From NCBI GenBank assembly GCA_008360975.2, contig CM039182.1:152123858-152187857 (forward strand): a stretch of 64,000 bases of DNA. Direction: 5' to 3'. Positions 3,301 to 57,100 of the stretch are shown one piece after another; position 1 is the stretch's first letter, and each line of letters begins with the position of its first letter. The position numbers were made by a program, and so were the translations under genes. Origin of the DNA: Lichenostomus cassidix (Eukaryota > Chordata > Aves > Passeriformes > Meliphagidae). The notes under the pieces are model-generated. The model was given only the letters and a program-made list of their open reading frames with translations, ran no database searches and was not told the DNA's origin.

Positions 3301-6300
3301 AAAATATCCCAAAAAATATCCCAAAAAATAGCCCAAAAATATCCCAAAAATATCCCCAAAAATATCCCAAAAATATCCCAAAATACACCCCAAAAATATC
3401 CAAAGAATATCACCAAAATATCCCCAAAAATATCCGAAAAACTAACCCAAAAACAGCCCAAAAAATAACCCAAAAATATCCCCAAATCACCCCAAAAATA
3501 TCCCAAAAATAACCCAAAAATAACCCGAAAACAATCCCAAAAATATCACAAAAATATCACAAAAATATCCCCAAAATTATCCCAAAATATCCCAAAAAAT
3601 ATCCCAATGATATCCCAAAAAATATCCCAAAAACACCCAAAAACTAACCCAAAAACAGCCCAAAAAAATAACCCAAAAATATCCCCAAATCACCCAAAAA
3701 ATATCCCAAAAATATCCCAAAAATAACCCAAAAATAACGCAAAAATATCTCAAAAAATATCCCAAAAATAACCCCAAAAAATAGCCCAAAAATAGCCCAA
3801 AAATATCCCAAAATATCCCAAAAATATCCCAAAAATATCCTAAAATTATCCCAAAACATCCCAAAAATATCCCAAAAAATAACCCAAAAATATCCCAAAA
3901 ATATCCCAACAATAACCCGAAAACAACCCAAAAATACCAAAAAAACCCACAAAAAATATCTCCAAAAATGTCCCAAAATCATCCCAAAAACATCCCAAAT
4001 CATCCCAAAAATATCCCAAAAATATCCCAAAAACACCCCAAATCATCCCAAAAATATCCTAAAAATATCCCCAAAAAATCCCAAAAATATCCCAAAAATA
4101 TCCCAAAAATTGGCCAAAAATAACCCAAAAATAACCAAAAATATTCAAAAAATATCCCAAAAATATCCCAAAAATATCTCAAAAATATCCAAAAAATATC
4201 CCAAAACCACCGTGAAAACACCCCAAATCATCCAAGAAACATCCTAAAAATATCCCAAAAATAACCCAAAAATATCCCAAAAAATTGGCCAAAAATAACC
4301 CAAAAATACCCCCAAAACCAACCCAAATCACCCCCAAAAATACCCCAAAAATATCCCAAAAATATCCCAAAAAATAACCCAAAACCACCCCAAATCACCC
4401 CAAAAATGCCCCCAAAAATATCCCCAAAATATACCCCAAAAAACCAAAAACAGCCTAAAAATATCCCAAAAACACCCCAAAAACACCTGAAATCACCCCA
4501 AAAATACCACAAAAATACCCCAAAAATATCCCAAAAGCATCTCAAATCACCCCAAAAATATCCCAAAAACAACCCAAAAATACCCCAAAAACAACCCCAA
4601 AACCACCAAAAAAACCTTGAGAACCCCAAAATCCCCCAAATCAACCTCAGAATTCCCCCCAATTCCCCCAAAAATCCCCTGAAAAATCCCTGAAAACCCC
4701 GAAAAACCCCAAAAAATCCCTCAAATCCCCCAAAATCCCAGAAATCCCCAAAAAATCCCACCTGGAACTGCACAGCCTCCTGCATGGCCTAAACCCCAAA
4801 TCCCCCAAATTTCCCCCAAAAAATCCCCAAAAACCCTCAGAACTCCCAAATCCTCCCAAAAAACCCAAAATCCCAAATCCTCCCAAAAAACCCCAAAATC
4901 ACCCAAAATCCCCAAATCTTCCCCAAAAATCCCCAAAAATCCCTGAAAATCCCCAAAATCCCCCAAAATCCTCCCAAAATCCTCCCAAAAAAATCCCCAA
5001 AAAACCCCAAAAAACCCCAAAAATCCCCCAAAACCCCACCTAGAACTGCATGGCCTCCTGCATGACCCTAAACCCCAAAATCCCCCAAATACCCCCAAAT
5101 CCTCCCAAATCCCCCAAATCCCTGAAAAAACCCCCAAAACTTCCAAATCCCCAAAAAATCCCCCAAAAATCCCCAAAAACCCCAAAATCCGCACCTGGAA
5201 CTGCACGGCCTCCTGCATTGCCCTAAACCCCAAAATCCCCCAAATCACCCAAATTCTCTCCCAAAAACCCCAAAAATCCCCTAAAAACCCCAAAATCCCC
5301 CAAAACACCCCAAATCCCCAAATCCTCTCCCAAAAATCCCCCAAAACCAAAAAAATCACCCAAAAAACCCCTGAAAAATCCCTGAAAACCCCAAAAATCC
5401 CAAAATCCCCCCAAATCCCAAAAAAACCCCCAAAAATCCCCCCAAACCGCACCTGGAACTGCACGGCCTCCTGCATGGCGCCCAGGTGCACGGGGATGTG
5501 AGGCGCGTTGGACACCAAACCCCCCTGGGGGCCGAAGAGCGCGCAGGAGAAGTCCAACCGCTCCTTGATGTTGGTGGAGATGGCAGTGCGCTGCAGGGTG
5601 CGACCCATCTGCTCTGCGGGGACATGCCGGCGCCTCAGGGGACACCAGAAACCAGGAGACCCCAAAAAACGTCCCAAAACCATCATGGGATCAACCCAGG
5701 ACAAGCAGGAGCACCAGGAACCACCAGGAACCATCTAGGAACCATTAGAAACCACCAGGAACCATCCTGGGATCACCAGGAACCATCCAGGAACCACCTA
5801 GGACCATCCTGGAACCACCACGAACCACCAGGAACCACCCAGGAATCATCCAGGACCACCAGGAACCATCCAGGAACCATCCAGGAACCACCAGAAACTA
5901 CTCAGGAACCACCAGGAACCAACCAGGAACCACAAGAAACCACCCAGGAATCATCCAGGACCACCAGGAACCACCCAGGAACCATCAGAAACCATCCAGG
6001 GACCACCCAGGAACCACCAGGGGCTCCTCAATGTTGGTGGAGATGGCAGTGCGCTGCAGGGTGCGACCCATCTGCTCTGCGGGGACACGCCGGCGCCTCA
6101 GGGGACACCCCGAAACCAGGAGACCCCAAAACATGTCCCAAAACCATCCTGGGATCAACCCAGGACAAGCAGGAACCACCAGGAATCATCAGGAGCACCA
6201 GGAACCATCTAGGAACCATTAGAAACCACCAGGAACCAACCAGGAACCATCAAGGAACCATCCTGGGATCACCAGGACCACCAGGAACCACCAGAAACCA

Positions 6301-54100: not shown

Positions 54101-57100
54101 TCCCTTAGCCCCGCCCCTTCCCGAATGCTCTCGGCAGCTCGTGCAGCACTAGCCCCGCCCTTCACTTAGCCCCGCCCCATTCCCCAAGCCCCGCCCCTTA
54201 CCGAAAGCTCTCGGCAGCTCGTGCAGCACTAGCCCCGCCCCATTCCCCAAGCCACGCCCCTTTCCTAAGCCCCGCCCCTTTCCCAAGCCCCGTCCATTCC
54301 CGAAGGCTCTCGGCAGCTCGTGCAGCACTAGCCCCGCCCGTTCCCTTAGCCCCGCCCCTTGCCCAAGCCCCGCCCATTCCCAAGCCCCGCCCCTCACCGA
54401 AGGCTCTCGGCAGCTCGTGCAGCACTAGCCCCGCCCCCGCGGCCGCCCCCGCGCTGCCGGAAGTGGCGAAGGCGGAGCCGAGCGCGAGCCCATCGGCCAG
54501 CCGGTGCACAGCGCCCCCTGCCGACAGCAACAGCGCCTGCGCGGAGCCCGAGCCTGCCGAGCGGGGACACACAGGGACAGACGGGGACACGGGGGGGACA
54601 GGGCAGAGACAGCGGGAGAGACAGGAGTTATCACAGGGCACCCGCGGGTCACTCACGGGTCACCCACGGGCACCTAGTGACACCTATGGGTCACCTGGGA
54701 GCACCCAAAGGTCACCCAGTGACACCCACGGGTCACCTACAGGCACCTAGTGACACCTACGGGTCACCTGGGAACACCTAAAGGTCACCCACGGGTCACC
54801 CAGTGACACCCACGGGTCACCCGGGGTCACCTGGGGACACCTAGGGAGACCCACGGGTCACTCGGGGTCACCCACGGGTCACCCATGGGTCACCTGGGAA
54901 CACCCACGGGTCACCCGGGGTCACCTGGGAACACCCATGGGTCACCTGGGGTCACCTGGGGACACCCACGTGTCATTTCCAGGCCCCCATAGGAACACCT
55001 GTGGTCACCTGGGGCCACCCACCGGCACCTGGGGACACCCACGGGTCACTCCCAGGACCCCATGGGGACACCTGTGGTCACCTGGGGCCACCCACCGGCA
55101 CCTGGGGACACCCACGGGTCACTCGGGGTCACCTATGGACACCCACGGCTCACCCGGGGTCACCTGGGGCCACCCACGGCTCACCCGGGGTCACCTGGGG
55201 CCACCCACGGGTCACTCGGGTCCCCCCAGTCCCCCTCGTGTCCCCGGGGGTCCCAGCAGCGCCCCCAGGTGGCGCTGGGCGGCATTGCCGCGCGCACGGC
55301 CCAGTGGCCTAATGGACAAGGCATCAGCCTCCGGAGCTGGGGATTGTGGGTTCGAGTCCCACCTGGGTCGCGACCACCCCCTTTTACCGGGGGGGCTGGG
55401 GGGGTCGTAGGGCGGGAATTTGGGGGGATTTGGGGAATTTTGGGGGGGTTTGGGGTCGTACCGGGGGGGCGCAGCTCCTGCGTGCTCTGGGCGGGGTCAG
55501 GGCTGGGGTCTCCATCCTTTACCTGCGGGGGGGGAGGAGGGGGGGGCTGTACCCCAAAATCGTCCCCAAAACGCCCAGAGTCGTCACCCCCCCTGCAGCC
55601 CCCACCCCAAAACTCGGGGTGCCAAAAGCCCCCCAAGTCCTCCCCACGGCCCACCCCATACCCTCCCCGGGGGGTTCCCATCGCCCCCCATGTCCCCTGA
55701 TGTCCCCTGATGTCACCTGATGTCCCCTGATGTCCTACTCATGGCCCCAAAGTCACCCCCATGTCCCACATTATCCCCCCATTACCCTCTCCATGGCCCT
55801 CTATGTCCCCATGTCCTAATGTCTCCTGCATGTCCCCATGTCCCCCGTCGCCCCATGTCACTCCATGTCCCCTGATGTCCCTGATGTCCCAAGTCACCCC
55901 ATGTCACCCATTATCCCCGTGTCCCTCTTGTCACTTGTCCCCTCATGTCACCTCCGTGTCGCCCAGGTCACCTCCATGTCCCCTCCATGTCCCCCCATGT
56001 CCCCTGATGTCCCTCCATGTCACCTCCATGTCCCCCGATGTCCCCTGATGTCCTCAAAGTCACCCCATGTCCCACATTATCCCCTCATTATCCCCCCCAC
56101 GTCCCCTGATGTCCCCGGATGTCCCTGATGTCCCAAAGTCACCCATGTCCCACATTATCCCCATGTCCTCCATGTCCCCGATGTCCCCTGATGACCCTCT
56201 GTCACCCCATGTCCCCATAACTCCTTCATGCATGTCCCCCATGTCCCCTCCATGTCACCCCATGCCCCGATGTCCCCTGATGTGCCTCCATGTCCCCCAT
56301 TGCCCCCATGTCCCCGATGCACCCCATGTCCCCCCACGTCACCCCGATGTCCCCGATGTCCCCGATGTCCCCACCTCCTCCGGGGCTGTCCCCAGCCCCC
56401 CCAGCAGCCGCTCGAGCACGAAGCCCCCGTAAAGTCCCCCCAGCACTGCCAGCATCTCCCAGGGGGGACCTTGGGGACCTCCGTGCTCCTCGGGTGTCAC
56501 CTCCGAGTGGCCGTGGATGCCCAGCGCCTGCGGGGACACCGCGGGGACACCAGTGGAGTCGGTGTCACCCCCCCTCGTGTCCCCAGTGTCCCTTCCCGTG
56601 TGCCCCCCTGGGTCCCCAGTGTCCCCCCTCGTGTCCCCAGTGTCCCTCCGTGTCTCCCCCAGTGTCCCACAGTGTCCCCACAGTGTCCCCACAGTGTCCC
56701 CACAGTGTCCCCCATGTCCCCCCGTGTGCCCCCTGCCCCCACAGTGTCCCCAGTGTCCCCCTGTGTCCCTCCCATGTCCCCAATGTCCCAGCAGTGTCCC
56801 CAATGTCTCCCCGTGTCCCTCCCATGTCCCCAGTGTCCCCAATGTCCCCAATTATCCCCAATGTCCCCAGTGTCCCCAATGTCCCAATTATCCCCAATGT
56901 CCCCCCAATGTCCCCAACACCCCAGTGTCCCCAGTGTCCCCAATGTCCCCGATGTCCCCTGTGTCCCCAATGTCCCCAATGTCCCCAGTGTCCCCAGTGT
57001 CCCCAATGTCCCCAGTGTCCCCAATTATCCCCAATGTCCCCGATGTCCTCAATGTCCCAATTATCCCCAATGTCCCCAAATGTCCCCATTGTCCCCGATG

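Follow-up and report, generated by a model that had tools for sequence, protein, structure and literature searches.

Intronic tandem arrays of OPLAH, CPSF1, and SLC39A4 in a bird genome contain copies of exon edges with their splice sites

RESULTS

Three minus-strand genes in a 64-kb window

The stretch of DNA analyzed here, called the window below, comprises 64 kb from the bird Lichenostomus cassidix (GenBank assembly GCA_008360975.2, contig CM039182.1, positions 152,123,858 to 152,187,857) and carries three genes, OPLAH, CPSF1, and SLC39A4, whose intronic tandem arrays contain copies of the neighboring exon edge together with its splice site. All three genes lie on the minus strand, and coordinates are those of the window. 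The annotation comprises 14 exons of OPLAH (159-26986), 6 coding exons of CPSF1 counted from the gene start (30155-47344), and 9 coding exons of SLC39A4 (51032-62596), giving 29 exons and 55 splice borders once the gene ends that have no splice site (the CPSF1 start, the SLC39A4 start, and the SLC39A4 stop) are excluded. Analyses restricted to complete introns used 26 introns and their 52 borders.

We located the exons by tblastn and by spliced alignment of proteins to the DNA, with bird relatives of OPLAH and SLC39A4 and human CPSF1 as references, and then corrected them by reading the sequence and by aligning 11 of the 120 listed proteins; support for CPSF1 exon 2 (28 bp) is weak. Among the 120 relatives listed, the passerine Agelaius tricolor has the closest OPLAH (88% in one half and 85% in the other). 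The window contains two gaps of 500 N (28466-28965 and 58488-58987). CPSF1 ends after ~229 residues near the first of these, and OPLAH begins across it without its first ~200 residues, so either the true size of this gap is not fixed by the 500 N or the join is wrong.

Intronic arrays carry the adjoining exon edge

To count border copies, we used the threshold published for chicken exon stuttering (blastn-short, length of at least 20, at least 42.1 bits). It was passed by 42 of 53 proximal matches, i.e., those in adjacent introns, at 15 of the 55 borders, whereas only 4 of 230 distal matches in other introns passed and shuffled introns yielded no passing match. The passing matches fell in 12 of the 26 complete introns (46%), or in 14 of 29 when three partial stretches are included. 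Their source began no more than 1 base from the border in 31 of the 42 cases (74%); the six matches of CPSF1 exon 6 began 3 to 10 bases in.

A second count, based on border-spanning 25-mers with up to 5 edits, found 72 copies in adjacent introns at 21 of the 55 borders, relative to an expectation of 0.4 copies based on other introns; shuffled introns gave 1 copy. Three of these borders (the OPLAH exon 13 donor, the CPSF1 exon 1 donor, and the SLC39A4 exon 2 acceptor) were weak, each having a single match at the maximum edit distance, and dropping them left 18 of 55 captured borders. These comprised 7 of 28 donors and 11 of 27 acceptors, with no bias between the two types (P = 0.26). The longest exonic part per captured border ranged from 8 to 72 bp (median, 42 bp), although individual copies contained as few as 4 exonic bp, and the median unit spacing was 82 to 293 bp in the 12 arrays measured.

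The exonic end point was mostly common to the copies of one array, and in some arrays the copies share changes that the exon does not have. Given these two observations, the number of independent events is ~18 rather than 72, and the near-constant exonic end in most arrays points to a single capture followed by amplification of the unit.

An earlier, sequence-only reading had proposed that arrays in all three genes carry 10 to 75 bp of the neighboring exon plus its donor or acceptor. Taking its OPLAH exon numbers as gene order and any unstated side as the side with copies, we found adjacent-intron copies for every exon that it listed, on 15 of 15 resulting sides: the acceptors of OPLAH exons 1, 2, and 6, the donors of OPLAH exons 7 and 9, both sides of OPLAH exons 3 and 12, the CPSF1 donor at 30155 and acceptor at 31298, the SLC39A4 exon 7 donor, both sides of SLC39A4 exon 8, and the SLC39A4 exon 9 acceptor. 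Against the proposed 10 to 75 bp, the longest exonic part measured 17 to 72 bp at 17 of the 18 borders and 8 bp at the SLC39A4 exon 8 acceptor. Copies were also present at the acceptors of OPLAH exons 5, 9, and 11, as were 13 probable copies of the CPSF1 exon 5 acceptor. The observation was thus right, and the pattern is somewhat more extensive than had been stated.

Within OPLAH, the first exon of the window (26791-26986; region, 26791-27900) has an acceptor-side array of 6 border copies with up to 61 exonic bp, and exon 2 (25013-25178; region, 25013-25993) has one of 10 border copies with a unit of ~82 bp, 8 of which contain 43 to 44 exonic bp. Arrays flank exon 3 (23683-23821) on both sides (22984-24445), with 5 copies of 23 exonic bp on the donor side and 3 copies of up to 32 exonic bp on the acceptor side. 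The acceptor-side arrays of exon 5 (21737-22430) and exon 6 (20043-20155; region, 20043-20602) hold 7 copies with 5 to 17 exonic bp and 4 copies with 56 to 62 exonic bp, respectively, and 5 copies with 11 to 50 exonic bp lie on the donor side of exon 7 (18673-18843; region, 17523-18843). At exon 9 (14045-14183; region, 12572-14310), the donor-side array consists of 9 copies, 8 of them with 55 exonic bp, and there is one acceptor-side copy. A single acceptor-side copy with 26 exonic bp lies ~0.9 kb from exon 11 (7497-7648; region, 7497-8560). Exon 12 (5453-5613; region, 4762-6482) has 3 donor-side copies with 25 to 27 exonic bp and one acceptor-side copy with 46 to 54 exonic bp, for which Tandem Repeats Finder (TRF) reported a period of 463. 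In the database predictions of OPLAH from zebra finch and Catharus, part of exon 9 (14045-14183) is replaced or missing, possibly through a gene-prediction error caused by repeats or copied splice sites.

In CPSF1, the acceptor copies of exon 5 (31147-31298; region, 31147-34360) differ in length. One long copy near 31.8 kb contains 69 to 72 exonic bp, and a pyrimidine tract followed by AG and GATGGA occurs 13 times within intron 4 (32846-34360); we call these 13 copies probable because they have just 6 to 9 exonic bases in common with the exon. The donor-side array of exon 6 (30155-30301; region, 29075-30301), which sits near the assembly gap, consists of 6 copies with 59 to 68 exonic bp and a unit of ~187 bp. 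The CPSF1 part of the window (30000-48000) is AT-rich, with a GC content of 0.36 to 0.46 in 2-kb steps and GC-richer DNA on both sides, and its strand skews shift intron by intron.

In SLC39A4, the donor-side array of exon 7 (54398-54553; region, 53905-54553) has 6 copies, 5 of them with 39 to 40 exonic bp. Exon 8 (52983-53170) is flanked on both sides (52449-53823), by 3 donor-side copies with 30 to 35 exonic bp and by an acceptor-side array of 11 copies with only 5 to 8 exonic bp. Among the acceptor-side copies of exon 9 (51032-51157; region, 51032-51745), two contain 68 exonic bp and are 98.5 to 100% identical to the exon. A tRNA-Arg (CCG) gene lies antisense within SLC39A4 intron 6 (55298-55371, plus strand).

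Borders mark the edge of repeat-filled sequence

TRF covered 82% of the window, 88% of its noncoding sequence, and 22% of its exonic sequence, with coverage of 54 to 99% in each of the 26 complete introns. We scored local repetition at every second position as the presence of a copy of the 20-mer, with up to 4 mismatches, within 3 kb, discounting letters that are equally common elsewhere in the window. On the noncoding side, local repetition affected 93% of positions farther than 100 bp from a border, relative to 84% at 40 to 100 bp and 75% at 15 to 40 bp; the rate was 37% at positions no more than 4 bp from the border, and inside the exon it was 25% at 15 to 40 bp and 11% at 40 to 75 bp. The profile therefore declines smoothly from intron to exon, with no peak at the border. 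Rates of up to 40% reappear deeper in exons because some exons hold coding arrays, and the interior rate is 10% without the four exons concerned.

The border-centered 20-mer was locally repeated at 36% of the 55 borders, whereas the mean over 5,000 joint shifts of these borders around the window was 86% (minimum, 66%). Given the smooth profile and the more frequent repetition of shifted borders, we conclude that borders are the edge of the repeat-filled space rather than its source. The claim that arrays keep choosing exon-intron borders thus fails the comparison with chance placement, which argues against a border preference but leaves the existence of the copies unaffected.

Tandem arrays inside coding exons keep the reading frame

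Of the 16 TRF rows within exons, 15 have a period divisible by 3, compared to 40% of 464 noncoding rows. By our grouping, these 16 rows represent 8 distinct arrays, each with a description divisible by 3; the chance of this is ~0.0007 if the arrays are independent. OPLAH exon 5 (21256-21737) contains two in-frame arrays (21337-21522 and 21521-21571), which extend a linker such that 101 residues separate EDQPL from the conserved VEEVA, relative to a median of 29 in the 64 measurable proteins among the 120 relatives listed. This in-frame stretch of ~80 residues is rich in G, T, D, S, and A, and the linker is short in the other aligned birds. The frame is open throughout, and we regard the array as coding, although an intron at this position retains some probability.

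The remaining in-frame arrays lie in SLC39A4, in exons 2 and 3 (59299-60799; arrays at 60397-60549, 60609-60667, 59412-59473, and 59509-59711) and in exon 4 (57835-58055; arrays at 57920-57985, period 18, and 57986-58050, period 30). The exon 2 array at 60397-60549 is a period-12 array of NVTA/DVTA that multiplies N-x-T letters, which are possible glycosylation sites; this array presumably falls in the extracellular part of the protein. The preservation of frame in coding arrays supports the view that duplications are filtered by selection.

Most copied splice sites are intact

The sequence-only reading had also predicted dense decoy splice sites, and these are present. The GT or AG dinucleotide is kept in 55 of 67 copied borders checked (69 copies were entered and 2 dropped), and in a simple matrix 35 equal or exceed the score of the real site. 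A separate dinucleotide count over 15 arrays gave 52 of 59. Both counts exclude the SLC39A4 exon 8 acceptor copies and the 13 short CPSF1 acceptor copies, and the second further excludes OPLAH exons 5 and 11. They are also slightly low, since a CPSF1 exon 5 copy was scored as lost in both despite reading TTCCAG before and GATGGA after the border.

Within CPSF1 intron 4, 8 acceptor-like sites reach the score of the real exon 5 acceptor (6.4), relative to a mean of 0.15 in shuffled sequence, and 12 of the 13 probable acceptor copies score at least 6.0. Extending the exon to an intact decoy would introduce a stop codon in 47 of 55 cases and would remain open and in frame in only 2 of 55. We saw no purging of decoys; since their dinucleotides are retained like neighboring exonic positions, no selection against them is visible.

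Base composition does not separate introns with and without copies

The GC content of the coding sequence is 68 to 70% in OPLAH and SLC39A4 and 55% in CPSF1. The five complete CPSF1 introns have 32 to 45% GC, 87 to 99% TRF coverage, and 0 to 3.5 G-quadruplex motifs (loops of 1 to 7) per kb per strand. Among them, introns 2, 3, and 5 combine 32 to 39% GC and 87 to 97% repeat coverage with a quadruplex density that does not exceed 2.4 motifs per kb per strand, whether loops of 1 to 7 or loops of up to 12 are allowed. Given that these introns are AT-rich and quadruplex-poor yet repeat-filled, high GC content or quadruplexes are not needed for every array here. When the complete introns were divided by our labels into those with exon copies (n = 14) and those without (n = 12), GC content, skew, length, and G-quadruplex density (loops of 1 to 7) did not separate the two groups (P = 0.40 to 0.82).

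DISCUSSION

Border-blind duplication as the probable origin of the copies

We consider it likely, with a probability of roughly 75%, that the exon-edge copies are the spillover of random local tandem duplication, with breakpoints at almost any position and no special attraction to borders. The locus would be a field of frequent local duplication, in which a duplication that lies entirely within an intron would be tolerated. One with a breakpoint in the exon and the other in the intron would be tolerated as well, because it would deposit the copied edge and splice site in the intron and leave the original exon, with its own site, where it was. A duplication entirely within an exon would survive only if it kept the reading frame and fell in a tolerant stretch; since most exonic duplications would break the protein, fewer of them should be tolerated than of those that cross a border. 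After a border-crossing event, the unit would be amplified into an array whose exonic end point is mostly constant, and splicing would presumably pass over the copied decoys and use the site belonging to the complete exon. Duplications of 50 to 200 bp near an intron would often cross a border if introns were ancestrally short, and border capture would therefore be expected even without attraction.

A simulation using random breakpoints and this tolerance rule let introns grow from 200 bp, a short ancestral length that is an assumption, until the 26 complete introns had reached their observed lengths. Of the 52 borders, 35% (standard deviation, 5%) were then captured with 10 or more exonic bp, at a median depth of 38 bp. 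The window shows such capture at 15 of 52 borders (29%), a figure that becomes 18 of 55 once partial introns and the border with 8 exonic bp are included, and the median longest depth at these 18 borders is 42 bp.

Several results weigh against this explanation. Across settings, the simulation captured 1 to 44% of borders, so its agreement with the data is not proof; its free parameters were the ancestral intron length (100 to 800 bp), the unit lengths, the number of copies per event, and the purging of duplications past mid-exon, and old copies did not decay. One microhomology test hints that exonic ends are nonrandom (15 arrays, 4.3 versus 1.6 matching bases, P = 0.008), and some ends vary within an array, the donor copies of OPLAH exon 7 containing 11 to 50 exonic bp and those of CPSF1 exon 6 containing 59 or 68. 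Copy-to-copy divergence is lower in exon-derived parts (11.7%) than in neighboring intronic parts (17.6%), a comparison in which some acceptor alignments are poor; we read this as slippage in simple sequence, and gene conversion from the exon is the alternative. Against our reading of base composition, rather than of breakpoints, stands the finding that with loops of up to 12 CPSF1 introns 1 and 4 reach 14.6 and 8.6 quadruplex motifs per kb on the antisense strand.

The alternative that survives best, albeit one we consider unlikely, is homology-assisted capture, in which an intronic array would recombine or switch template with a chance motif match in the exon and so pull in the stretch up to the border. 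Several exonic ends do begin with array-like letters, and two of three versions of the microhomology test were significant: the first (11 arrays; Fisher P = 2e-5, Wilcoxon P = 0.002), in which many acceptor junctions were skipped and exon copies were poorly masked, and the third (15 arrays; Fisher P = 0.0007, Wilcoxon P = 0.008), in which partial exon copies were probably unmasked. Leftover exon copies may thus have inflated both, and the second version, in which ends were overshot by ~2 mismatched bases, detected no excess among 16 arrays (Fisher P = 0.86, Wilcoxon P = 0.35).

A further reading, improbable in our judgment as a whole, is that one duplication process runs through the entire locus, in introns as well as exons and in GC-rich as well as AT-rich sequence, blind to both borders and base composition, such that selection alone decides where copies persist, and that its products, for instance the 13 probable acceptor copies of CPSF1 intron 4, may serve the spliceosome as alternative or stepping-stone sites. 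Were this true, new splice isoforms and new introns could still be arising from these introns.

The sequence-only reading had suggested that border sequence either seeds the expansion or is captured by it. Capture into arrays is evident; attraction or seeding is not supported, and we regard as quite improbable an expansion started by a feature of the border such as splice-site sequence, a nucleosome, or transcription state. The capture of 18 of 55 borders and the start of 31 of 42 threshold matches within 1 base of the border would fit seeding, but starts at the border follow from border-crossing duplication under any model. Furthermore, local repetition has no maximum at borders and is more frequent once the borders are shifted, and coding arrays exist away from borders.

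We regard any use of the decoys in splicing as very improbable. Such use could take the form of alternative sites, of ratchet points within long introns, or of material from which new introns arise, the last having been proposed for amphioxus mirages (PMC3087553). The intact dinucleotides, the 35 high-scoring copies, and the acceptor-like sites of CPSF1 intron 4 are compatible with use; in contrast, the stop codons that most intact decoys would introduce and dinucleotide retention no different from that of neighboring exonic positions argue against it. Least probable of all is assembly error, for even though the window contains two gaps and some copies match the exon at 100%, the copies are on average diverged and carry unit-specific changes, and raw nanopore reads have served to check the general structure of such introns in the chicken gene PHF8 (PMC12954441).

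These analyses turn an eye-catching pattern into numbers that set border-seeded expansion against border-blind duplication filtered by selection, and they favor the latter. CPSF1 introns 2, 3, and 5 speak against high GC content or quadruplexes being necessary. Because of the decoys, these genes offer a natural way to test how a real site is discriminated from near-identical neighbors by the spliceosome; the decoys are also a possible cause of gene-prediction errors.

Relation to exon stuttering, mirage minisatellites, and hidden avian genes

The exon-edge arrays described here are of a known kind, namely, that of chicken exon stuttering and of the mirage minisatellites of amphioxus, and our results tie the former, described in 2026, to the latter. 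Hron et al. (PMC12954441) reported sequence or exon stuttering in 236 introns of 115 chicken genes, 190 of them among 5,572 introns of dot chromosomes (3.4%), the preferred location, with lengths that vary between individuals. In more than 90% of the chicken cases, the source lies within 1 base of the exon border. The authors report no repeat block crossing into exons; they suggest a link with GC-rich coding sequence and consider high GC content and quadruplexes among the mechanisms. As in chicken, the copies in our window are imperfect direct repeats of a lateral exon part plus its splice site, are confined to the adjacent intron, contain exonic parts of tens of bases, lie in introns filled with simple repeats, and pass the same blastn threshold.

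The window differs from the chicken cases in density, with 12 of 26 complete introns affected versus 190 of 5,572 dot-chromosome introns, a loose comparison because the chicken set was hand-curated and the choice of this window was itself based on its repeats. It also differs in the AT-richness of its CPSF1 introns and in its 8 distinct coding-exon arrays, a feature that the authors of the chicken paper report not having seen. The main text of that paper does not name OPLAH, CPSF1, or SLC39A4 and does not use the word "mirage," and passages of PMC9974502 and PMC13192246 add nothing further on these genes. One chicken paper assigns OPLAH to chromosome 2 (PMC11508066), so the locus does not necessarily belong to a dot chromosome.

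The mirages of the amphioxus Adh3 and globin genes are repeats across exon-intron boundaries that include splice signals; they are unstable in length, differ in length between haplotypes, and are spliced regularly according to reverse transcription-PCR (RT-PCR) (PMC3087553). Many but not all of their copies keep the splice signals, as do 55 of 67 copies here (52 of 59 in the separate count), and both border types are likewise involved here, with 11 acceptors and 7 donors. Unlike the mirages, which concern a few cephalochordate loci and come with RT-PCR and haplotype comparisons, the present cases were read from one genome sequence and amount to 18 of 55 borders within a single 64-kb window of bird DNA. 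GC-rich hidden avian genes, among which PMC4539667 lists OPLAH, resemble the genes of this window in being hard to sequence and in having introns packed with tandem repeats (PMC6792250), although the relevant passages of these two papers do not mention exon-edge copies. Relative to these systems, what is new here is the set of three genes, the higher density of affected introns, the AT-rich CPSF1 arrays, the in-frame coding arrays, and the mostly intact decoys.

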